Shown here: positions 2,266 through 11,648 of the stretch, piece by piece
Layout of the letters: the number at the start of each line of letters is the position of its first letter
Numbering within the stretch: position 1 is the stretch's first letter
Assembly (NCBI GenBank): GCA_001871075.1
Contig: MNUP01000065.1
Coordinates: 1-11,970, forward strand
Direction of reading: 5' to 3'
Source: Candidatus Desantisbacteria bacterium CG1_02_49_89
Lineage (GTDB): Bacteria > Desantisbacteria > UBA1551
Length of the DNA: 11,970 nt
Translations under genes and position numbers: made by a program
The notes under the pieces: model-generated
What the model saw: the letters and a program-made list of their open reading frames with translations, nothing else
The model's database searches: none
What the model was told of the DNA's origin: nothing

Positions 2266-3030
2266 CTACGGTTTTATACGCTCAACCTTATCAGATTCGG
2301 TCCAGCCTTTAAGGCCCTCCTCTTTAAGCCCAACCTCGCACCAGCCCCGGTTTTCTCTTAAAACAAGGACCTTCTTTCCTTCGGGAACGATGAACCCGGC
2401 TGAATATTCCATTCCGGGGCCTGACCTTACGCCGCAGTCAGATTTAACAACGATCGCGGATGGCTGGTTCACGTTATAGAGTTTAATACCCCACCAGATC
2501 CCTGAAATAGCTGCGGCGATCAATAGAATACGGATCGCAAGATTAAAGATTGCAGATTTTCTGAAAAACCAGACGCAGATAAAAGCGATTAAAAGAAAAT
2601 AACAGATCGAGAAGATGACCGTGAGCTCGCCTACGCTTAGAAGGTCATAAACGCCCTTAAGTGTTTCCATAACAGGATTTTTCTGTTTTTGCTCTGCCTG
2701 AAGCGTTGATTCCCTGGCGAATTCAAGGTTGAATTTCATATCCTCGTCCCTCGGGTCAAGGACCCTCGCGCGTTCATAGTTGAGGATAGCCGGGCCAGGC
2801 TTGCCTGCTTTGAAATAGGCGTTCCCAAGGTTGTAAAAAAGCTGAGCGGATCGCAGACCCTTTGATAGCAGGTCTTCGTACGAATTTATGGCAGAGCTAT
2901 AACTGCCTGCTTCATACTGCTTGTTCGCCTGCAGGAAAAGCTCATCCGGCCCCTGAGCGCAAGCGAGCTCAAAGCTCAAAGCTGAAAGCTGAAAGGTAAC
3001 AACAAGGAGTAGAAGCAATGCCTTTTTCAT
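2266..3030 (-). CDS. batE: BatE: secreted/membrane TPR protein with C-terminal SH3-like domain
   Basis: BatE is a 254-residue protein of the Bat (aerotolerance) membrane complex. A signal peptide spans about residues 1-25, with an ACA|Q-type cleavage site. TPR-like repeats cover about 27-105 (LFYNLGNAYFKAGKPGPAIL is a typical TPR helix pair). Two membrane segments lie near 135-156 and 164-181. Residues 192-254 form a bacterial SH3 domain (VRSGPGMEY, then VLVLRENRGWCEV, then KGWTESDKV). I start at ATG 3030, because MKKALLLLL is a clean signal start and the in-frame extension to 3135 translates spacer palindromes. The 5' end is almost the same as that of batD, including leader and signal peptide, and contains the heptamer array 2967-2994. 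It is the last gene of the operon. Its final ~46 codons are duplicated at 552-690. Confidence 0.9.
   Translation of the reverse strand: MKKALLLLLVVTFQLSALSFELACAQGPDELFLQANKQYEAGSYSSAINSYEDLLSKGLRSAQLFYNLGNAYFKAGKPGPAILNYERARVLDPRDEDMKFNLEFARESTLQAEQKQKNPVMETLKGVYDLLSVGELTVIFSICYFLLIAFICVWFFRKSAIFNLAIRILLIAAAISGIWWGIKLYNVNQPSAIVVKSDCGVRSGPGMEYSAGFIVPEGKKVLVLRENRGWCEVGLKEEGLKGWTESDKVERIKP
2967..2994. repeat. Heptamer array inside the batE signal peptide
   Basis: There are four exact 7-nt units (plus strand GCTCAAA twice, then GCTGAAA twice). On the coding strand they give the FQLSALSFEL part of the signal peptide. The near-identical array in batD is at 4925-4952. Confidence 0.85.
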
Positions 3031-3075
3031 ATTAAATACCTTTTTTGCCACGAATTTCCCCCCGCAGCTGCTGCG

Positions 3076-3108
3076 CAGCTCAACGCAGGGGCCTGCGCGC
3101 CAGAGCTG
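3076..3108. repeat. REP-like GC-rich hairpin between batD and batE
   Basis: Outer arms CAGCTC (3076-3081) and GAGCTG (3103-3108) enclose an inner CGCAGG-GG-CCTGCG hairpin (3084-3097). More GC-rich imperfect pairing continues on both sides (about 3060-3125). It sits in the 166-bp spacer and would form a stable stem in the mRNA just before batE, a position seen for REP elements. Confidence 0.6.
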
Positions 3109-3158
3109 AGCGGATGGCGCTGCGGACGAAAGCACGAAATAGATCAGCCACGGATTTT

Positions 3159-3200
3159 AAACTCTATAAACTCTGTAAACTTGTAAACTTTGTAAACTAT
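3159..3200. repeat. 9-nt array at the batD stop codon
   Basis: AAACTCTAT, AAACTCTGT, AAACTTGT, AAACTTTGT and AAACTA follow one another with a spacing of 9, 9, 8 and 9. The batD stop codon (CTA at 3197-3199 on the plus strand) is part of the last unit, so the array begins exactly where the gene ends. Confidence 0.8.
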
Positions 3201-4987
3201 TTTCTAGTTTTCATGGTTTTTTCGAGCTTGTTGATTATCGCCTTCGTCCGTTCTGCAAGGCCGCGGACTTCCTGCTCCTGCGCCTGCAAAGGAGCGTACC
3301 TGACAAAATCGCACTTCGAGATGATATCAAGCGTTTCCGCGACCGTTTCCTGGTCAGTTCCGCGGTCCAGCAGGTTTTTTTCTATCATTGCCGATGTCAG
3401 GCCCGGAGCCGCGATATTGAGCTTGTCCGCGATGTACTGCGCCAGCACGCCGGAAATGGCGCAGGCGGTCTTAACAGGGTCCTGTTCTTTTATGCCCCTA
3501 AGGTTTTTCTCCGCGGTCCCGAAGGCCCTGTGCAGGCGCATATATTTTATATCGGTAATAAGGCGGTTGTACTGCCTGCTGTAAATGAATGAGACCAGTA
3601 AAGCAAGTAGCGGCAGCAATTGCAGGATAATGAACCAGGGCTGCTCGTAAACCGGGGTGGTTTTCCTTAAAAGCCTGCCGGAAGTTTTCAAATAACGGAT
3701 ATCCCTGCCCAGGAACTTGATGCCCTGGGGTGAAAATGCGGAAGGGAGCTGCGCCGCGGGCTTTGTGCTCGGAAGAGCGGTGATACTTACCGGGTTTGCG
3801 GAGACGGTGCGGTACGACCTGGATGCCGGGTCAAAAAAGCTTATTTCCACCGCGGGTATTGTAAGCTTGCCAGCTGTCTGGGGCACAAGCATTGTCGTGA
3901 AGGCCTTTGAGCCCTGAACAACATAATTTTCCTTTGTCACGTTCATTGACGGTATCGTGTTATATTTCCTGAACCCGGTAAGCCCTTCTATCGCTGGCTC
4001 TGAGATGGTCTTGATGTTGCCCACGCCGGAAATAGTGGCCTTAAGCGTTATTGGCTGGTTTGCCTCTACAGTCTGCTTGTCCGCGCTTGCTTCGATTCTG
4101 TACTGCCCGACCATCCCGGAAAAATTCCGCGGTTTTCCCTGGGGCAGGGGCAGCACCTTTATCTGGATGGGGTTTGTTGTAAGGGTGTGTGTTTTGCCCC
4201 TTGAAAAGAAAGACTGGAAAAAGCTGTCGTCAAAGAAACCGGTGGGGGGGGAGAAATCCTCCACGTTGCACACAAGGTTCGCGCTGCCGATCGTGTAGTT
4301 GCCTGCCGCGGTAGGGAAGAGCCCGGTTTTAAGCTCAACCACAAAATATCTCTGGCCGTTGACGACTTCGTAGTATGTTTTTTGCGGGGGAAGGTCCTCT
4401 ATCCAGAAACCGGTGTATTCCGGCTGTTTATACTGGGGATTGCTCATAAGGTTGATATTGCGGTAGAACTTGAATGAAAAGGTTATCTGCTCGTTAACAT
4501 ACGCGGTCTGCTTGTCAACAGTACCCGTGACGAATATATTGCCCGTGGCTCCTGGGGCAGGTGCCTGCTGCTGCGGAGCCTGGGCCTGGGCAGCTGCCTG
4601 CACGACCTCAATGCTTATGGGGGCTGAGGAAAAGGCCTTTCCCCCGACCTGCACGCTTATGGGCGGGATGGTGAACTTGCCTATCTTTTTCGGCGCGAGC
4701 ACGAAATTAAAGGTGACGGAAGACGAGATCTGGCCGTTCACGATGGAAATGTTCTGGCTCTGCCCGGAAGAATAGATGTTAAAATCAGGCAGGCCTGGTA
4801 TCTGGGGCTGGGGTATCTGGGAAACGTTGCCTGAAACAACGACGCGCAGGGTCACCTGCTGGTCAAGCGAGACCTGCGGCCTGTCAACGGAGGCGGATAT
4901 GCTTATGTCCTGCGCCCAGACAAGGTGAAAGCTCAAAGCTGAAAGCTGAAAGGTAACGACAAGGAGTAAAAGCAATACTTTTTTCAT
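3197..4987 (-). CDS. batD: BatD: periplasmic Ig-like domains, single membrane anchor, cytoplasmic helical tail
   Basis: BatD is 596 residues. The signal peptide is residues 1-25, cleaved after VWA|Q. The first Ig-like beta domain spans about 27-130 (ISASVDRPQVSLDQQVTLRV) and is followed by an Ala/Gln/Pro-rich linker (131-148). Two further beta domains span about 150-280 (FVTGTVDKQTAYVNEQITF) and 295-405 (IEASADKQTVEANQPITL). One membrane segment is near 450-470, with a helical cytoplasmic region at 471-596. The repeating VDxxxVxxxxxxTL pattern at the start of each beta domain is typical of the BatD family. The start is ATG 4987, 8 nt after AAGG; a GTG at 5008 would only add MVKKVFK. The gene follows batB-batC across a ~296-bp repeat-filled spacer. 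Its signal sequence carries a heptamer array, and its stop lies in another array. Confidence 0.92.
   Translation of the reverse strand: MKKVLLLLLVVTFQLSALSFHLVWAQDISISASVDRPQVSLDQQVTLRVVVSGNVSQIPQPQIPGLPDFNIYSSGQSQNISIVNGQISSSVTFNFVLAPKKIGKFTIPPISVQVGGKAFSSAPISIEVVQAAAQAQAPQQQAPAPGATGNIFVTGTVDKQTAYVNEQITFSFKFYRNINLMSNPQYKQPEYTGFWIEDLPPQKTYYEVVNGQRYFVVELKTGLFPTAAGNYTIGSANLVCNVEDFSPPTGFFDDSFFQSFFSRGKTHTLTTNPIQIKVLPLPQGKPRNFSGMVGQYRIEASADKQTVEANQPITLKATISGVGNIKTISEPAIEGLTGFRKYNTIPSMNVTKENYVVQGSKAFTTMLVPQTAGKLTIPAVEISFFDPASRSYRTVSANPVSITALPSTKPAAQLPSAFSPQGIKFLGRDIRYLKTSGRLLRKTTPVYEQPWFIILQLLPLLALLVSFIYSRQYNRLITDIKYMRLHRAFGTAEKNLRGIKEQDPVKTACAISGVLAQYIADKLNIAAPGLTSAMIEKNLLDRGTDQETVAETLDIISKCDFVRYAPLQAQEQEVRGLAERTKAIINKLEKTMKTRK
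4925..4952. repeat. Heptamer array inside the batD signal peptide
   Basis: Four 7-nt units lie in a row (plus strand GTGAAAG, CTCAAAG, CTGAAAG, CTGAAAG). On the coding strand they read as CTTTCAG-type units and give FQLSALSFHL. One unit gained or lost would shift the frame of batD. Confidence 0.85.
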
Positions 4988-5006
4988 CTTAAATACCTTT
5001 TTTACC

Positions 5007-5080
5007 ACGAAAGCACTCCGCCCGTCTTTCAGCGGGCGAGACTTCGCCCACCTAAAAGGATGGGCGAGGAAATCACGAAA
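5007..5080. repeat. 74-bp palindrome-rich spacer repeat, copy 1
   Basis: This differs from 8221-8294 at only 2 of 74 positions and has the same orientation. It contains CCGCCCG...GCGGGCG and GCCCACCT...GGATGGGC pairings flanked by CACGAAA-type ends. It touches the 5' leader of batD. A mobile palindromic element is likely. Confidence 0.8.
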
Positions 5081-5093
5081 AAATACATTTTGT

Positions 5094-5120
5094 CACTGAA
5101 GGCACTGAACACACTGAGGA
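5094..5120. repeat. 9-nt array CACTGAAGG / CACTGAACA / CACTGAGGA
   Basis: Three tandem 9-nt units sharing CACTGA lie in the middle of the batB-batC/batD spacer. Confidence 0.7.
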
Positions 5121-5132
5121 AGATGTGTAATA

Positions 5133-5177
5133 TCAGGGCTGAAGCCCTGAGTTACCCCGAAGGGGTCCCTTTGGGAC
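5133..5177. repeat. Three adjacent short hairpins
   Basis: TCAGGGCT-GA-AGCCCTGA (5133-5150), CCCC-GA-AGGGG (5155-5165) and GTCCC-TTT-GGGAC (5165-5177) follow each other. This resembles a composite REP-type element; no T tract follows on the minus strand, so a terminator is not supported. Confidence 0.6.
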
Positions 5178-5200
5178 AATAATATCCCTTGCCCTTGCTC

Positions 5201-5240
5201 TGACACTTTGACACGCTGATACGTTGACACGTTGATACGC
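5201..5240. repeat. 8-nt array TGACACGT-type, five units
   Basis: TGACACTT, TGACACGC, TGATACGT, TGACACGT and TGATACGC follow without gaps. A sister array with four units lies at 8369-8400, in the same orientation and also just downstream of a stop codon. Confidence 0.85.
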
Positions 5241-5248
5241 CTTAAACG

Positions 5249-5276
5249 GTGGACAATCGACCGTGGACTGTGGACT
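5249..5276. repeat. Heptamer array GTGGACT-type after the batB-batC stop
   Basis: There are four exact 7-nt units: GTGGACA, ATCGACC, GTGGACT, GTGGACT. The array lies 7 bp from the batB-batC stop codon (5284-5286). Confidence 0.85.
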
Positions 5277-5283
5277 AGAGAGG

Positions 5284-7005
5284 CTACCATTCTTTCTCCA
5301 CCGTGCCCACCTGGACAGGGACCATCTTTTTGCGGTCTTTGGACGCCTTCATTTCGCTTTCCTGGAAAGCATCCAGTATCCTTTTCGCGTCTTCCTTTGA
5401 CATCTGGTCCTTTTTCTCTCCCTGCTGTTGTTCCTGCTGTTCTTTTTTGTCCTGATCAGAGTCTTTATTTTCTTTCTGCTGCTGTTCCTTTTTTTCATTC
5501 TTGTTTTTATCCCCGGTCTTCTGCTGCTGTTCCTTCTGTTTCTGTTCCTGTTTGTCTTTTTCCGGCTTGCAGCATTTAGTATTGGGCGTTTCCTTCATTT
5601 TCTTCATCAGGAGCTCAAGGTTGAATTTCGCGTCCATATCCCTGGGGTTCAGGTCAAGGGCTTTTTTATAGACCTGGATCGCCTCCTGCATCCTATCAGT
5701 CCTGTAAAGGCTGTTCCCGGTGTTGTAATATGCCTTCTGCTGTATGGAGCGGTCTTTTGAATTATTCGCCTTCATGAATTCATCCAGCGCCTGTCCGTAT
5801 TCGCCTGACTTGAAAAGGGCGTCCCCGGAATTAAAAAAGAGCATGTCCGATCCGGGATGGTCAACAAGCGCGTCTTTATACCGGTCAAGCGCCTCTTCGT
5901 ATTGCTCTTTTTCGTAAAGCCGGTTGCCCTTATCGATCTTTCCCTTTAATGACGCCCCGGAAGAGCTTGGGAGCAGTATGGCCAGCAAAAATACGAACCC
6001 GATAAGCACCTTCTTCTTTTCTGACAGCAGAAGCTCAAGCATTATCAATATCAGCGCGATCAATAAGAAATATTGATACCTGTTCTCCTGCTGGGAATAT
6101 ACCTTTGCCTGCAGTTCTTTTTTCTCCATATTCGAAATGTCCTCGTAGATCCGTTCGATCTCTATCTCCCCGTCAGAAGCCCTGTAATACCTGCCCCCGG
6201 TCTCGAGCGCGATCTTCTGCAAAGCCGCCTCGTTAAGGGAACTCATGATCGACTCGCCTTTTTTATCTTTAAGGTATCCGGAAACATTTCCTGTTTCGTC
6301 GCGGACCGGGATGGGTTCGCCTGAAGGATTGCCGAAACCTATCGCGTATATCCTGACGCCTTCCTTTTTGGCTTCAGCCACAACGCTGTCCAGGCTTCCT
6401 TCGTGGCTCTCGCCGTCGCTTAACAGGATAAAAGCCTTGTATTTCTGCTCCTTGCTGACAAAGCCCTTTATCGCGGTCCTTATCGCGGCCGGGATGTTCG
6501 TTCCGGGGCGGGGGATAAGGCCCGGGTCTATAAGGTCAAGGAACATTTTCGCCGCGTTATAATCCAGGGTAAGCGGGCACTGGACGAAAGCGATGCCGGC
6601 GAAGGCTATCACGCCTATCCTGTCACCCTGAAGCTTGCTTACAAAGGACGAAAGCTCATTCTTGGCTTTTGCAAGGCGGCTGGGAGCGATATCCTCAGCC
6701 ATCATGCTCCTGGAACAGTCAATGGCGATGAATATATCCACGCCCCTTCTTTTTATTTCCTGCATTTTTGTCCCGATCTCAGGCCCGGCTGCGGAGATCG
6801 CGATGAGGAGAATAGAAATGACGACAAGCGCCGTTTTGTACGCCTGTTTCTTCCTGCTTGCGGACGCGGAAAGCGCCTCGACCAGTTTCGGGTCGCCGAA
6901 TGCCGCCATCCTCCTTTTCTTTTCCCCCAGGGAAAAGATAAAGAGCATAATAAGCAGCGGCACAGCCCAGATCAGATTGCTCCATAACGGATGAGAAAAC
7001 CCCAT
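5284..7005 (-). CDS. batB: BatB-BatC fusion: membrane VWA protein with TPR and Lys/Gln-rich tail
   Basis: This 573-residue protein joins what are often two genes. The BatB part has membrane segments near 10-26 and 58-74. It then has a VWA domain from about 89 to 295 with a complete MIDAS: IAIDCSRSM (Asp96, Ser98, Ser100), a Thr near 169 (RPGTNI) and LLSDGESHEG (Asp197). Membrane segments follow near 311-327 and 332-347. The BatC part starts near 352 and carries three TPR units to about 467 (AYYNTGNSLYRTDRMQEAI is the clearest). A Lys/Gln/Glu-rich, probably disordered stretch follows (480-535), then a short conserved tail. The start ATG 7005 has AGAGGA just upstream. There is one continuous frame with no sign of frameshift. 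The VWA domain is predicted to face the periplasm and to bind a divalent metal and protein partners. Confidence 0.92.
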   Translation of the reverse strand: MGFSHPLWSNLIWAVPLLIMLFIFSLGEKKRRMAAFGDPKLVEALSASASRKKQAYKTALVVISILLIAISAAGPEIGTKMQEIKRRGVDIFIAIDCSRSMMAEDIAPSRLAKAKNELSSFVSKLQGDRIGVIAFAGIAFVQCPLTLDYNAAKMFLDLIDPGLIPRPGTNIPAAIRTAIKGFVSKEQKYKAFILLSDGESHEGSLDSVVAEAKKEGVRIYAIGFGNPSGEPIPVRDETGNVSGYLKDKKGESIMSSLNEAALQKIALETGGRYYRASDGEIEIERIYEDISNMEKKELQAKVYSQQENRYQYFLLIALILIMLELLLSEKKKVLIGFVFLLAILLPSSSGASLKGKIDKGNRLYEKEQYEEALDRYKDALVDHPGSDMLFFNSGDALFKSGEYGQALDEFMKANNSKDRSIQQKAYYNTGNSLYRTDRMQEAIQVYKKALDLNPRDMDAKFNLELLMKKMKETPNTKCCKPEKDKQEQKQKEQQQKTGDKNKNEKKEQQQKENKDSDQDKKEQQEQQQGEKKDQMSKEDAKRILDAFQESEMKASKDRKKMVPVQVGTVEKEW

Positions 7006-7021
7006 TGTTCCTCTTAACTGC

Positions 7022-7160
7022 GTCGAACGTCGTGCGTCTTACGTCGTGCGTATAAATTCTTAAACGTATGACGTACGACATACGACTTACGACGGTATCT
7101 ACGCACGACCTACGACGTATGACGGTATTTACGCACGACTTACGACGTATGACATACGAC
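7022..7160. repeat. Large heptamer array filling the batA/batB spacer
   Basis: GTCGTGC-type units run from 7022 to 7049. After an AT-rich turn (7050-7065), the complementary NTACGAC-type units run in groups of 4, 3 and 4 (7066-7093, 7103-7123, 7133-7160), separated by GGTATCTAC and GGTATTTAC. The first part can fold as an imperfect hairpin with the AT-rich turn as its loop. The last unit lies 3 bp from the batA stop codon. Positions 7034-7095 recur as an exact inverted copy at 10347-10408. Confidence 0.9.
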
Positions 7161-7163
7161 GGC

Positions 7164-8156
7164 TTAAGGAATCTTAAGCAGGACCGTGCCGGCAAGTGCC
7201 TGTTCAAGCAAAAGCAGCGCGAAAGCCGGGAGCAGGAAGAAAAGGTAAAGGTCCCTGTATTCCGTGTATTCCTTCACTTTCAGCTTTACTTTTTCCAACC
7301 TGTCAATTCTTCTGAAAATTTCCTCAAGCCCCCCTGTGGAAGCCGCGCGGAAATAAGTCCCGCCTGTCATATCAGCCATTTTTCTTAAGGATACCTCATC
7401 AAGCTCCTGTTCCGGGATCTTAACGTATCTTCTCCCGAAAGCAGGGTCATCCACCGGGTACATCGCCCCGCCGGGGGCTCCGGCGCCTATCGTGTATATT
7501 TTTATGCCAAGCGCCTGCGCTGTTTTCGCGGCCGTGAGCGGGTCTATTTCCCCGTAGTTGTTCCTGCCGTCAGAAAGCAGTATGATCACCTTGCTCTTAG
7601 CCTCGCTTGTGCGCAGCCTGTTTACCGATGTCGCGATGGCTGAGCCGATCGCTGTCATGTCAATAGAGGTCATGCCTATCTCGACCTTGCTGATCAGGTC
7701 CAGCACCGCGCCGTGGTCAAGCGTGAGAGGGCACTGGGTGAAGCTCAGGCCCGCGAAAACCACCACGCCTATCCTGTCGTGTTTCCTGCCCTGGACGAAT
7801 TTTTTGGCGGTTTCCTTCGCGGCATCAAGCCTGTTCCTGGGCTTAAAATCCTCAGCCTGCATGCTGGAGGATGTGTCCAGGCACAGTATGATATCAACGC
7901 CTTCTGTAGAGACTTCCTCGCTGAAGGTCCCTGCCTGTGGCCTTGAAAGCGCCAGCACAATGAGAGCAACGGCCGCAAGCCTGGACCATAGAAGAATAAT
8001 ATCCCTGTTCTTTGTCCAGAAGTCGGCGCTCCTGCCCAGGATGCCGAGGCTTGAATATACCAGTGCCGCGCCTTCCCTGCGGAAATATTTCCGCAGCAGC
8101 AGGTAAACCGGGATGAAAACCAGGAATGTCAGATAATAAGGGTTCGCGAATCGCAT
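7164..8156 (-). CDS. batA: BatA: membrane VWA-domain protein
   Basis: BatA is 330 residues. Membrane segments lie near 8-22 and 54-71, and the second ends in the LSRPQAG motif typical of BatA/BatB. The VWA domain covers about 84-290 and has a full MIDAS: LCLDTSSSM (Asp94, Ser96, Ser98), a Thr in GMTSIDMTAIG (163 or 168) and LLSDGRNNYG (Asp196). The C-terminal membrane segment is near 303-322. The MIDAS binds a divalent cation and through it a protein ligand, so BatA is probably a core of the membrane complex remodelled by MoxR. The start ATG 8156 has GGTGAG close upstream, a weak or very close site. Sequence similarity to the following BatB part (FAGxxFxQCPLTLD in both) shows that the two are paralogues. 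Confidence 0.93.
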   Translation of the reverse strand: MRFANPYYLTFLVFIPVYLLLRKYFRREGAALVYSSLGILGRSADFWTKNRDIILLWSRLAAVALIVLALSRPQAGTFSEEVSTEGVDIILCLDTSSSMQAEDFKPRNRLDAAKETAKKFVQGRKHDRIGVVVFAGLSFTQCPLTLDHGAVLDLISKVEIGMTSIDMTAIGSAIATSVNRLRTSEAKSKVIILLSDGRNNYGEIDPLTAAKTAQALGIKIYTIGAGAPGGAMYPVDDPAFGRRYVKIPEQELDEVSLRKMADMTGGTYFRAASTGGLEEIFRRIDRLEKVKLKVKEYTEYRDLYLFFLLPAFALLLLEQALAGTVLLKIP

Positions 8157-8170
8157 ATCTCACCAAAAAC

Positions 8171-8212
8171 AAGTCAAAAGTCAAATTGTAAAATGTAAAT
8201 TGCAAAAGTGTA
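8171..8212. repeat. Heptamer array AAGTCAA-type before batA
   Basis: Six 7-nt units lie in a row: AAGTCAA, AAGTCAA, ATTGTAA, AATGTAA, ATTGCAA, AAGTGTA. It is 15 bp upstream of the batA start codon, next to the ribosome-binding region. Confidence 0.85.
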
Positions 8213-8220
8213 AGATTATT

Positions 8221-8294
8221 ACGAAAGCACTCCGCCCGTCTTTCAGCGGGCGAGACTTCGCCCACCTGAAAGGATGGGCGAGGAAAGCACGAAA
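8221..8294. repeat. 74-bp palindrome-rich spacer repeat, copy 2
   Basis: This is the partner of 5007-5080 with two mismatches, in the same orientation. It lies in the 245-bp spacer before batA. Confidence 0.8.
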
Positions 8295-8329
8295 CCTTCG
8301 GTCAGCCACGGATTTCCACGAATTTTTAC

Positions 8330-8357
8330 ATTCAGCTTTTAGCATCCAGCATTTAGC
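8330..8357. repeat. Heptamer array ATTTAGC-type
   Basis: Four 7-nt units follow without gaps: ATTCAGC, TTTTAGC, ATCCAGC, ATTTAGC. Confidence 0.85.
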
Positions 8358-8368
8358 AGATTTTACTC

Positions 8369-8400
8369 TGACACATTGACACGTTGATACGTTGACACGC
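8369..8400. repeat. 8-nt array TGACACGT-type, four units, at a stop codon
   Basis: TGACACAT, TGACACGT, TGATACGT and TGACACGC end 1 bp before the stop codon of the BatD-like gene (8402-8404). The related five-unit array is at 5201-5240. Confidence 0.85.
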
Positions 8401-8401
8401 A

Positions 8402-9343
8402 TTAAGGAGCAGGCTCAACAGGCACAATTTCTTTCGTAAGGTCGACGATCTCATACGCCATTGCAAGGTCCCGATCAATTTCTGTTTTCTCCGGGATGAA
8501 CCTGGCGAATTTAACCAGGTCGCTTTGGTCAAGCAGTTCTTTCAGCATGCCGCAATGCCTGCGCTCAATGCCTTTTACCCGCATTTCCTGGTAAAGCTCG
8601 GTTGTGGTGCGTTCGGTCGCAAAGACCGAATACCTTTCCTCGATGTAAAGGCGCATTATCTCGGACAGGACGATGTAATATTTTTTTATCTTTCCCCGCA
8701 GCACAAGGTCCATCTCTTCAAGTTTTTTCAGCCTTTCAATTGCGATCTCGTGAGCCGGCCTTGCCAAAGGTTTCTGGGCAGGGAATACAGGTTCACCCTT
8801 CCTTCTCTTCCAGAGGATCCAGAATATTACCAGGCCTGCGGCTATCGCGAGGACGTAAAAGAGCAGGTAGCTCTTTATTGAAAGGGGAGGTTTTATGTCC
8901 CTGATGTCAGCGCCGGCTGTTTCGCCTTTCAGCACGCTTTCAACCAGTATCGGTATCGTGTCCGTTGAGGCAGTCGACGTGTTCCCAGCCAGGTCTTTAT
9001 AGGCAACGAGCAGGGAAGGTATCGCGTAAGAGCCCACGCTGAAAACAGTTATCGTGTACCTGAACTCGGTTATTTCCTTACCGCCTCTCTTTCTGGGTTT
9101 TTCCTGCCGCAGGTCTTTTACCTCGAATATCTCAGAGGCAGGGGACGGGTTGAATGCCGCAAGCTCAGCGCCCGCGGGTTTCTCGACAATAACCGTGTAG
9201 ACGATCCTGTCCCCGACAGTTATCTTCGACCTGTCCACCCGCGACTTTACAGTTACCGCCGCGCTTTCTGCATAAACGACGTGTAACGTGTCACGTGTCA
9301 CGTGTAACGTAAAAACCAGGAGTAAAAGCAATATCTTTTTCAT
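8402..9343 (-). CDS. Short BatD-like membrane protein (Ig-like domain, one TM, cytoplasmic helical domain)
   Basis: This is 313 residues, encoded between the DUF58 gene and batA, where many Bat/MoxR operons have a DUF4381-type protein. Residues 1-25 are a signal peptide (cleavage near VYA|E). Residues 28-135 form a beta domain whose start (VKSRVDRSKITVGDRIVYTV) matches the start of the BatD domains. A membrane segment is near 157-178. A helical cytoplasmic part (195-305) contains KKYYIVLSEIMRLYIEERY and LLDQSDLVKFARF, resembling the BatD tail (SGVLAQYIADKLN, SKCDFVRYA). I infer a compact BatD paralogue that links periplasmic and cytoplasmic partners. ATG 9343 has AAAGG 7 nt upstream. The signal sequence contains the heptamer array 9279-9306. 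A named family cannot be fixed from sequence alone. Confidence 0.85.
   Translation of the reverse strand: MKKILLLLLVFTLHVTRDTLHVVYAESAAVTVKSRVDRSKITVGDRIVYTVIVEKPAGAELAAFNPSPASEIFEVKDLRQEKPRKRGGKEITEFRYTITVFSVGSYAIPSLLVAYKDLAGNTSTASTDTIPILVESVLKGETAGADIRDIKPPLSIKSYLLFYVLAIAAGLVIFWILWKRRKGEPVFPAQKPLARPAHEIAIERLKKLEEMDLVLRGKIKKYYIVLSEIMRLYIEERYSVFATERTTTELYQEMRVKGIERRHCGMLKELLDQSDLVKFARFIPEKTEIDRDLAMAYEIVDLTKEIVPVEPAP
9279..9306. repeat. Heptamer array inside the signal peptide of the BatD-like gene
   Basis: Four 7-nt units (plus strand ACGTGTA, ACGTGTC, ACGTGTC, ACGTGTA, then a partial ACGT) encode the TLHVTRDTLHV stretch. An Arg-Asp pair inside a hydrophobic signal core is unusual and is explained by the repeat. 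Confidence 0.85.
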
Positions 9344-9356
9344 CCTGAACCTTTAC

Positions 9357-9380
9357 CACAGAAGCACGGAGGCACGGAGA
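9357..9380. repeat. 8-nt array CACGGAGG-type
   Basis: Three tandem units (CACAGAAG, CACGGAGG, CACGGAGA) lie just upstream of the BatD-like gene. Confidence 0.7.
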
Positions 9381-9389
9381 TTTCTCCGC

Positions 9390-9418
9390 GAAACCTGAAA
9401 CTCTGAAACCCGAAACAA
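9390..9418. repeat. 7/8-nt array GAAACCT-type
   Basis: GAAACCT, GAAACTCT, GAAACCC and GAAACAA follow one another with a spacing of 7, 8 and 7. Confidence 0.75.
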
Positions 9419-9431
9419 ATGTTTTTGCTAA

Positions 9432-9459
9432 CCACTGACCACTCGCCACTGACCACTGA
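9432..9459. repeat. Heptamer array CCACTGA-type after the DUF58 stop
   Basis: CCACTGA, CCACTCG, CCACTGA and CCACTGA are four exact 7-nt units, ending 2 bp from the DUF58 stop codon (9462-9464). Confidence 0.85.
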
Positions 9460-9461
9460 TT

Positions 9462-10340
9462 TTAACGGAATCTTTTGGCCCGCTTCCTGAAAAACGCGGT
9501 AAGCGGCTTAACGTAGGACGAACCGGTTTCCAGGTTCACGAAATCCATGTTTATGGAACCGAAGAACCTGTGCCTCGCATTCAGCCTGTCAAGCGCCTCC
9601 TTTTCAAAGGAGCCCCTTAGGGCCGCGTCGCCGGTGTTTACCAGGGCCGTCTTGCCCGTTTCAGCATCTTGCAGGCTCACAAGGCCGGCAGGAGGCATCC
9701 TTGATTCTCCGGGGTCCGCGATCTCCACGGCTATCATGTCATGGCGCTTGTTGGTTATCCGCAGCATTTTCTCGTAATCCCGGTCAATAAAATCCGATAT
9801 GACGAAAACAATGCATTTTTTCTTTACGACGTCGTTAAGGTATTTCAAAGCCGCGGAAATATCCGTGCCCGTGCCGCGGGGCTTGCCGTAAAGGGCTTCC
9901 CTTATGATCCGCAGGGCGTGCGTCCTTCCTTTCTTGGGCGGTATGTATTTTTCGATAGAGTCCGTGAACAGTATCAGGCCGACCTTGTCGTTGTTTTTCA
10001 TGGCGGAGAAAGCAAGCACCGCGCATACCTCAGCCGCTATTTCCGCCTTCATCCTGCGGGCGGTGCCGAACATGCCGGACGCGCTCCTGTCAACCAGCAG
10101 CATCACGGTCAGCTCCCTTTCCTCCACGAACTTCTTGATATAGGGGTGGCCGAACCGCGCGGTCACGTTCCAGTCTATAAGGCGTACGTCATCCCCGGGC
10201 TGGTACTCACGCACCTCGGAAAATTCCATGCCCCTGCCTTTGAACACGCTCTCGTACTGGCCTGCGAACACCTCGGTCACGAGCCTGCCTGTGGTTATCT
10301 CGATGCGCCGTATAGTTTTTAGTATCTCGCTGGATAACAT
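9462..10340 (-). CDS. DUF58-family protein (cytoplasmic VWA-like partner of MoxR)
   Basis: This 292-residue protein has the DUF58 signature near residues 35-63: GRGMEFSEVREYQPGDDVRLIDW followed by TARFGHPYIKKF. A VWA-like fold follows, with LLVDRSASG near 80-88 (a DxSxS-type MIDAS is kept) and IVFVISDFIDRDYE around 170. No membrane segment or signal is seen. DUF58 proteins are nearly always encoded next to MoxR AAA+ ATPases and are thought to work with them, though the biochemical role is unsettled. The start ATG 10340 has GGAG 4 nt upstream. That ribosome-binding site directly adjoins the heptamer array of the preceding spacer. It lies 85 bp downstream of moxR. Confidence 0.92.
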   Translation of the reverse strand: MLSSEILKTIRRIEITTGRLVTEVFAGQYESVFKGRGMEFSEVREYQPGDDVRLIDWNVTARFGHPYIKKFVEERELTVMLLVDRSASGMFGTARRMKAEIAAEVCAVLAFSAMKNNDKVGLILFTDSIEKYIPPKKGRTHALRIIREALYGKPRGTGTDISAALKYLNDVVKKKCIVFVISDFIDRDYEKMLRITNKRHDMIAVEIADPGESRMPPAGLVSLQDAETGKTALVNTGDAALRGSFEKEALDRLNARHRFFGSINMDFVNLETGSSYVKPLTAFFRKRAKRFR

Positions 10341-10346
10341 CTTGCT

Positions 10347-10420
10347 CCGTCGTAAGTCGTATGTCGTACGTCATACGTTTAAGAATTTATACGCACGACG
10401 TAAGACGCTCGACGCTCGAC
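10347..10420. repeat. Inverted pair of heptamer arrays filling the moxR/DUF58 spacer
   Basis: GTCGTAA, GTCGTAT, GTCGTAC and GTCATAC (10349-10376) are followed by an AT-rich turn and then GCACGAC, GTAAGAC, GCTCGAC and GCTCGAC (10393-10420), 5 bp from the moxR stop. The halves are complementary and form an imperfect hairpin. Positions 10347-10408 are an exact inverted copy of 7034-7095. Confidence 0.9.
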
Positions 10421-10425
10421 TGTAT

Positions 10426-11421
10426 CTACGGGACTTCAACCTCGTTCAAAACATGCTTAACGATATCGTCCGTAGTTGTCTCTTCCGCTTCAGCTTCATA
10501 CGTGAGGATTATCCTGTGCCTGAGCACGTCTCCCGCGATGGTCTTTATGTCCTCAGGTGTCACGTACCCTCTTCCCCTCATGAACGCATATGCCTTTCCC
10601 ACCGTTGTCAGGTATATGGTCGCCCTGGGGCTTGCGCCGTATGCTATAAGGGGTTTCAGGTCATCCATTTTATAATCCTGGGGGGACCTTGTGGCGAATA
10701 CGATATCAACTATGTATTTTTTCACCTTTTCATCTATATAGACTTTATTCACCACTTCCCTTGCTTTTACTATGTCTTTTGGGTTCACTACTGGGCTGAC
10801 CTTCGGGTCTGAGCCGGTGGTCATGCGCTCGAGTATCTGCAGTTCCTCTTCTTTTTGGGGATAGGTGATCTTGAGCTTGAGCATGAACCTGTCCACCTGC
10901 GCTTCAGGAAGGGGATATGTGCCTTCCTGCTCTATGGGGTTCTGCGTGGCAAGAACCAGGAAGAGATCTTCAAGTTTAAAGGTTGTTTCCCCCATCGTAA
11001 CCTGGCGTTCCTGCATGGCTTCAAGCAGCGCGCTCTGGACTTTCGCCGGAGCGCGGTTTATTTCGTCCGCGAGGATGAAATTAGAGAAGATCGGGCCCTT
11101 CCTTACGGTGAATTCCTTTCCTTCGGCAGCCCGCGGGTTGTAAATCGTGGTGCCTGTCAGGTCAGCCGGAAGAAGGTCAGGCGTGAACTGTATCCTCTGA
11201 AATTTCGCCTGTATCGACCCGGCAAGGGTTTTTATCGCGAGGGTCTTGGCAAGGCCCGGCACTCCCTCTATAAGGATGTGGCCGTTTGCAAGAAGGCCCA
11301 GCACAAGCCCTTCAAGGATCTGGCGCTGGCCCACGATCACTTTTCCCACCTCGCTGAGGATCTGCTCCACGAACACACTTTCCTTCTTTACCGCCTCGTT
11401 AATTTCCTTTATATCCCACAT
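10426..11421 (-). CDS. moxR: MoxR-family AAA+ ATPase
   Basis: This is a 331-residue AAA+ protein of the MoxR/RavA type. The Walker A motif is GVPGLAKT (53-60), Walker B is FILADEINRAP (115-125), the sensor-1 region is LATQNPIE (157-164), and the MoxR-typical LPEAQVDRFMLK is at 171-182. The helical lid follows and ends in ASPRATIYL, which carries the sensor-2 Arg, and the ARGYVTP-like GRGYVTPEDI. The length is normal for the family. The start ATG 11421 has a strong AAGGAGGG 6 nt upstream. It is the first gene of the operon and is expected to hydrolyse ATP to remodel or insert metal into the VWA proteins encoded downstream. Location is cytoplasmic, at the membrane through its partners. Confidence 0.95.
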   Translation of the reverse strand: MWDIKEINEAVKKESVFVEQILSEVGKVIVGQRQILEGLVLGLLANGHILIEGVPGLAKTLAIKTLAGSIQAKFQRIQFTPDLLPADLTGTTIYNPRAAEGKEFTVRKGPIFSNFILADEINRAPAKVQSALLEAMQERQVTMGETTFKLEDLFLVLATQNPIEQEGTYPLPEAQVDRFMLKLKITYPQKEEELQILERMTTGSDPKVSPVVNPKDIVKAREVVNKVYIDEKVKKYIVDIVFATRSPQDYKMDDLKPLIAYGASPRATIYLTTVGKAYAFMRGRGYVTPEDIKTIAGDVLRHRIILTYEAEAEETTTDDIVKHVLNEVEVP

Positions 11422-11437
11422 GTTTTTCCCTCCTTAA

Positions 11438-11458
11438 AATTATGAGTTATGAATTATG
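11438..11458. repeat. Heptamer array AATTATG-type before moxR
   Basis: AATTATG, AGTTATG and AATTATG are three exact 7-nt units, 2 bp from the moxR ribosome-binding site. A related AAATTATG recurs near 11505. Confidence 0.7.
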
Positions 11459-11592
11459 GAATTCGAAAGCATTCAGTAAAACATACGAGAATGTTGCGGA
11501 GCAAAATTATGAATCAACAACAAGGTATCTGTTTAAATAAAATTCCTTCCCTTTCACCTAATCCCTAACCGCATAAAGCGCGTCCCACATTT

Positions 11593-11648
11593 TGCTTTCA
11601 TAAGAAAGCAGAGGGACATCTTATCCCTGACATCTTATCCCTGTCCCC
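11593..11648. repeat. Hairpin and 14-bp tandem repeat in the moxR leader
   Basis: TGCTTTC-ATAA-GAAAGCA (11593-11610) is a clean hairpin. Directly beside it GACATCTTATCCCT is repeated twice head to tail (11615-11628 and 11629-11642), closed by GTCCC. GGGAC and GTCCC arms surround the repeat. This would be in the 5' untranslated RNA of the operon if the promoter at 11657-11687 is used. It may be a REP-type element rather than a regulatory site. Confidence 0.6.

Follow-up and report, generated by a model that had tools for sequence, protein, structure and literature searches.

Short tandem arrays of 7 to 9 nt words, commonly four units long, recur within and between genes across the genome of Candidatus Desantisbacteria bacterium CG1_02_49_89

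Candidatus Desantisbacteria bacterium CG1_02_49_89, for which a draft genome of 2.48 Mb is available (93.5% complete), carries a bat-type operon on the minus strand of contig MNUP01000065.1, at positions 2266-11421. The window analysed here is that entire contig (C15 in our set), 11,970 bases in length. Domain matches identify genes for a MoxR-like AAA ATPase (10426-11421), a DUF58 protein (9462-10340), a weak BatD-like membrane protein (8402-9343), two BatA/VWA proteins (7164-8156 and 5284-7005), BatD itself (3197-4987; Pfam BatD) and a TPR/SH3 protein in a batE-like position (2266-3030; TPR and SH3_3 matches), all on the minus strand. Every junction of the operon contains at least one short tandem array, most often of 7 nt words. 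A preliminary description of the operon regarded these as independent arrays sharing a period but not a sequence, and attributed them to a mechanism that writes repeats at gene ends. Our analyses show that they belong to a population of several hundred short arrays distributed across the genome, usually comprising four copies of a 7-9 nt word and mostly situated at gene ends, and that this interpretation is supported in part.

Arrays were identified with a gap-free detector, a score of 12 or more being accepted as an array; this threshold does not disfavour short periods, and 20 shuffled versions of the window produced no array at 12 or above and approximately 0.1 period-7 arrays per window at scores of 8-12. 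Tandem Repeats Finder (TRF), which recovers arrays with gaps or mismatches, was also run. The arrays at the operon junctions are real: identity at lag 7 in the six internal operon spacers is 0.346, compared with 0.249 in dinucleotide shuffles (z 7.1), and reaches 0.337 at lag 14 (z 6.7), while the operon genes give 0.258 at lag 7 (z 0.3). Among the arrays first listed, six score at least 12, namely 3158-3181 (period 9), 5198-5239 (period 8), 7064-7093 (period 7), 8369-8399 (period 8), 9428-9459 (period 7; CCACTGA, 12.5) and 10349-10378 (period 7). Four others are weak when taken singly: CACTGAAGG at 5094-5117 (period 9, score 10), CACGGAGG at 9357-9379 (period 8, 10), the AATTATG array beginning near 11440 (period 7, 9.5) and a short GTGGACT array at 5259-5276 (period 7, 8.5). 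Two are detected by TRF only, a degenerate ATTTAGC-type array around 8330 (8324-8358; TRF 49 at period 14 and 33 at period 7) and a weak GAAACCT period-7 array with indels, below the detector threshold, at 9390-9416 (TRF 38). An AAGTCAA/AAATTGT period-7 array at 8171-8206 scores 11.5.

Several of these features are copies of one another. The arrays at 7022 and 10349, thought to be independent, are inverted copies of a single 74-bp hairpin composed of a GACGTAC heptamer arm, an AT-rich loop (TATAAATTCTTAAA) and an inverted arm; the plus-strand copy (7022-7095, folding at -35 kcal/mol) matches the reverse complement of the minus-strand copy (about 10346-10419, -31.4 kcal/mol) at 72 of 74 positions. 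More degenerate GACGTAC units, partly with a 30-nt period, lie beside the first copy at 7105-7160 (TRF and detector). A second 74-nt dispersed element, ACGAAAGCACTCCGCCCG...GGAAATCACGAAA, is likewise present twice, at 5007-5080 and 8221-8294 (72/74 identical), and the two period-8 TGAYACGY arrays (5198-5239 and 8369-8399) are members of a genome-wide family. The AAACTCTGT-type period-9 array at 3158-3198 (TRF 61; detector 12.5 + 9) belongs to the AGTTTAYAN family, and its last unit reaches into the batD stop codon (TAG, minus strand, 3197-3199), as first reported. At 11438-11463 the AATTATG array is a partial arm of the most abundant family, and by inspection AAAATTATGAATCAACAACAAGGTATC... at 11503-11553 resembles the start of the AATTATG-element core (compare the elements at loci L108 and L129). 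Three of the strongest arrays in the window were overlooked initially because they are intragenic. They occupy signal-peptide codons on the minus strand: (CTTTCAG)4 in the TPR/SH3 gene (2966-2995; score 20.5, null 0) and again in batD (4922-4952; 16.5), and a (CGTTACA)4-type array in gene 8402-9343 (9279-9310; 20). Comparison of the three leaders, which are of type MKK-LLLLLV-T, places the CTTTCAG array of two and the CGTTACA array of the third at an equal position and with equal length.

Arrays of this kind are not confined to the bat operon; they are present throughout the genome sample, which comprised 757 kb (about 30% of the genome), including 100 kb of noncoding sequence, with genes called by a simple open reading frame caller. 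Noncoding sequence in this sample contains 161 period-7 arrays scoring at least 12, followed by 47, 42, 24 and 4 at periods 8, 9, 10 and 11, and there are 0, 0 and 1 arrays at periods 4, 5 and 6; shuffled spacers yielded none at periods 4-12. The shared period is a property of the genome as a whole, and neither of the two outcomes that would have refuted the first observation was seen, namely spacers no more periodic at lag 7 than shuffled ones or a genome otherwise free of such arrays. The preference for gene 3' ends also holds genome-wide: in co-directional spacers 32% of arrays are found no more than 15 nt from a stop codon, compared with 12.8% under random placement, and start codons show no such excess (14.7% versus 13.6%). 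A common array length of about 28-40 bp had been proposed, but what the main families share is unit number. Runs of 3, 4 and 5 units number 3, 32 and 4 in TGAYACKY (8 nt), 12, 44 and 1 in RTKATGA (7 nt), and 7, 25 and 3 in AGTTTAYAN (9 nt; 25 four-unit runs in the sample), such that the count peaks at four in three large families regardless of period. As a separate observation, period 19 is the only other period showing a peak, with 11 arrays in the sample built on CACGAAA (AAAGCACGAAAGTATCACG).

Nor are the consensus types independent, since the words form families that recur across the genome. Flanks are common to distant arrays in 184 of 274 cases, also across word families, and the core AAGGAATTTTATTTAAATAAAATTCCTT occurs with arms of different words (ATTATGA, TGAYACGY and AGATCCT). 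An inverted partner lies within 150 nt of 90 of the 274 arrays, compared with 7 when the flanks of other arrays are used and 0 in shuffled sequence, and these inverted pairs enclose AT-rich loops. Pure structural selection on hairpins was considered as a cause of the pairing and rejected, as complementarity between the two arms of AATTATG elements is lower than between arms swapped at random (0.27 versus 0.44, P 0.005), probably because one arm with an odd unit is passed on from copy to copy. Within words, conservation is uneven: five unit positions of TGAYACKY show 2 changes in about 400 cells and the other three vary freely, and position 9 of AGTTTAYAN is fully free. The words are also connected by single mutational steps more often than letter-shuffled words (68 versus 34 edges at period 7; 17 versus 2 at period 8).

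This vocabulary is specific to the lineage. The sole other genome of the phylum compared (G001) is a distant sister, of the same order but a different family (LeuS 71% identical), and its 61 kb of noncoding sequence contains one period-7 array, equivalent to 1.6 per 100 kb against 161 here. Three units of TGAYACGY, with one mismatch allowed, match 189 times in the present genome, overlaps counted, and never in the sister; for CGTACGA at 3.5 units there are 38 matches here and none in 289 other genomes. A DUF58 query, aimed at orthologous bat spacers, had no match in the sister. In 116 kb of noncoding DNA taken from approximately 110 bat-operon loci of many phyla, there are 39 period-7 and 10 period-8 arrays and none at periods 4-6 or 9-11, and shuffles gave none at any of these periods. 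The words in other phyla mostly differ from those of this genome, and sharing with its period-7 list does not exceed chance (3 versus 1.9). Arrays elsewhere can exceed four units. A CAAATNN vocabulary, rare in general (4 of 290 genomes), is common to at least three unrelated array-rich genomes (G059, G061 and G063; loci L096, L049 and L101), which have dozens of such arrays, variable in length and some more than 10 units long.

Arrays within genes are in frame, and several lie in housekeeping genes. They occur in leuS, hypF, thiL, tsaB, and the genes for a pyrK-like subunit, a TIGR03960 radical-SAM protein, a Rnf/Nuo-type protein, a Mur ligase and a MiaB-like protein. About a dozen signal peptides, the three of the bat operon among them, also contain arrays. 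A period of 7 is coprime to 3, so that a word free of stop codons encodes one repeated heptapeptide whatever the frame; in LeuS the predicted array-encoded residues include SVQCPVSSVQ. Identity of at least 97% is seen in 30% of in-gene arrays and 2.6% of spacer arrays. Length changes were taken from tblastn and DNA alignments against the sister genome. The MiaB-like gene shows a 45-nt insertion at TA|TAATGATTTTG (QNVCSYKDSRASCVVRRASKSNDF versus QNVCAYNDF) and the first array of leuS a 27-nt insertion. At the second array of leuS and both TIGR03960 arrays, each 11-12 amino acids long, native sequence has been replaced with net changes of -2, -1 and +2 amino acids respectively. Alignment with solved LeuS, ThiL and HypF chains places the arrays in loops or length-variable stretches. 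In giant repeat proteins, a turn of the form FYYRD..GSPVLT-x-ADTQTE contains (CGTTACA)n, (CGCTTAT)n, (CCACTGG)n or (GCTATCA)n in different repeats, and two repeats are free of arrays at this turn with the spacing unchanged. These proteins (L139:4196-19999, L130 and L102; two exceed 4,000 amino acids) are formed from beta-rich modules, the turns of which have been repeatedly rewritten by arrays.

The arrays are dispersed, lineage-specific, peaked at four units and partly paired, and they insert into or overwrite genes. We consider it an even bet that they are very small, non-autonomous dispersed elements copied as short patches. The typical unit would be an arm in which a word of 7, 8 or 9 nt is repeated four times in tandem; arms would occur either solo or coupled with an inverted arm across an AT-rich loop, making an imperfect palindrome of roughly 60-110 bp. 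Spread would proceed by the copying of short patches from a genome-specific vocabulary to new sites. Those in spacers would build up, preferentially beside stop codons, and we propose that they accumulate there because they are harmless. Within genes the survivors would be stop-free orientations, in frame, in tolerant loops or signal peptides, having arisen either by insertion or by substitution for native sequence at nearly equal length. Copying may rely on short homologous or microhomologous patches, through substitution-type illegitimate recombination or perhaps a trans-acting recombinase, and word families may drift through mutation combined with local homogenisation. In short-patch double illegitimate recombination a short native tract gives way to unlinked DNA, with microhomology on either side; of these features, replacement at nearly equal length is what is seen at some of the in-gene arrays. 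We entertain a broader proposition only tentatively, and it is rather doubtful: that an activity present in a scattered set of bacteria places arrays at arbitrary sites, drawing on a lineage-specific vocabulary and working by replacement as well as insertion. Essential proteins and signal peptides would then carry peptides whose codons come from 7-nt words, and the arrays would be self-spreading DNA of a new class, defined by a word and a count of four in place of a fixed sequence.

Various observations count against patch copying. AARGTTR has no peak at four units, and AAAGTTG, AATGACT, AACGATG and many other families have no inverted partner. Informative sister orthologs exist for only five in-gene sites. 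One TIGR03960 loop of the sister possesses a period-8 array of its own with a different word, which keeps alive local formation in permissive loops as a contributing process. No target-site duplication was found at 13 four-plus-four elements, where the mean match is 1.54 nt compared with 1.42 for swapped flanks. Among transposases the search covered the Y1 family, and its ten matches are not consistently flanked by arrays. A Y1/RAYT mover of the REP-like kind was therefore rejected, arrays being near some of the ten loci but with differing words and distances, and no inverted pair bracketing any of them.

The foremost alternative is local replication slippage, in which words are duplicated in place and units of at least 7 nt escape mismatch repair or fit the polymerase; Mrazek and colleagues put this forward for heptamer-rich genomes. 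Slippage accounts for the sharp lower edge at period 7 with a tail falling through 8, 9, 10 and 11, and for the recurrence of that edge in many phyla whose spacers use different words; the different-word array in the sister's TIGR03960 loop, the mutational network linking words, and the longer, variable CAAATNN arrays of other genomes also speak for it. It does not account for four units being preferred at periods 7, 8 and 9 alike, for identical words at hundreds of unrelated sites, for inverted pairs with shared cores, or for overwriting with little net change in length. The wide, decaying distribution of unit number that marks slippage is absent from the three large families (AARGTTR and AAATTKY are broader). 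As a full explanation we consider slippage improbable.

Selection for protein-binding sites is unlikely. If four tandem units bound a nucleoid or RNA-binding regulator, this would suit the preference for four, the bias towards gene 3' ends and the unequal conservation of unit positions in TGAYACKY and AGTTTAYAN, but dozens of unrelated words in one genome would require as many binders, and regulatory sites would not be expected within leuS, hypF, other housekeeping genes and signal peptides, nor to be nearly absent from a sister of the same order, nor to show no preference for start codons. Classical miniature inverted-repeat transposable elements (MITEs) are less likely again. On this reading the arrays would be terminal inverted repeats belonging to a number of transposon families, and solo arms would be what remains of them; three families do combine terminal inverted repeats with dispersed copies, and the imperfect palindromes, the shared core bearing arms of different words and copies inverted relative to each other fit this origin. 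Set against it are the lack of target-site duplication at the 13 elements, the failure to find an autonomous partner among the Y1 transposases (the only family searched), solo arms of about 31 nt in genes, and overwriting, which is unlike transposition. Finally, a reverse transcriptase that writes repeats from an RNA template, in the manner of telomerase or DRT10 (9-nt repeat), is very improbable: periods of 7-10 and roughly four units do resemble telomeric or DRT10 repeat addition (PMC12632851), but each of the dozens of words would call for its own template, an intact reverse transcriptase is present in the array-poor sister, and the sole match in this 93.5% complete assembly (G000:C119 37201-37527, L311) is truncated at a contig end and, by eye, possibly resembles the enzymes of diversity-generating elements.

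Beyond the arrays, the window contains a helix-turn-helix regulator followed by an ImmA/IrrE-type M78 peptidase (1029-2079), a pair adjoining the operon and characteristic of toxin-antitoxin-like or mobile-element regulators. A fragment about 1.7 kb away duplicates the TPR/SH3 gene's 3' end together with the sequence downstream of it (481-690 and 2168-2405), one copy having approximately 27 extra nt after GAAACGCC. At 11615-11643, GACATCTTATCCCT occurs twice, both perfect, followed by GTCCCC, and looks like the flank of a lost transposase gene.

Heptamer arrays have been known for decades from single genomes and ascribed to slippage or to binding sites. Here the question becomes testable, given a sharp lower limit on period, a preferred count of four, words exchanged on shared cores, a nearly array-free sister, and array peptides in an aminoacyl-tRNA synthetase and other essential enzymes. 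If patches are indeed copied and genes overwritten, this would be a source of in-frame protein variation missed by standard repeat and transposon searches.

Rickettsia palindromic elements are small palindromic DNAs that lie in frame in essential protein genes, tolerated in loops; compared by description only, they are longer, lack a make-up of short tandem words and are confined to a single lineage. In Nostoc, very small mobile repeats of 21-27 nt are said, in work by Elhai et al. in 2008, to be embedded in heptameric arrays; there the 21-27-nt elements define the system and the arrays are their surroundings, the likeness being the tie to heptameric arrays. In several bacteria heptamers are the commonest of the long simple sequence repeats, for which slippage was invoked (Mrazek et al. 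2007, as cited in PMC4679880); in the present genome the number of units, the pairing of arrays and the overwriting point instead to copying from one site to another. The TAACTGA direct repeats of marine Beggiatoaceae, for which a role in translation was suggested (PMC4679880), are similarly abundant intergenic heptamer arrays (two to six units) with a patchy distribution across phyla, but consist of a single word just upstream of start codons, in contrast to many words near stops and inside genes. A close precedent is Geobacter metallireducens, which has multicopy elements of four tandem GGACCGG heptamers, and sites of four octamers or five heptamers that form opposite-strand pairs, between and within genes, with binding of a regulator (IHF/HU) suggested (PMC2700814). 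Judged from these descriptions, the present arrays have the same character: four tandem 7-8-nt units in dispersed, multicopy families, partly as opposite-strand pairs at variable distance, within and between genes. G. metallireducens has few families, whereas dozens of words form one vocabulary here, and shared cores with exchanged arms, in-frame insertion or overwriting, and near absence from a sister genome distinguish what is an unusually rich variant of that system.

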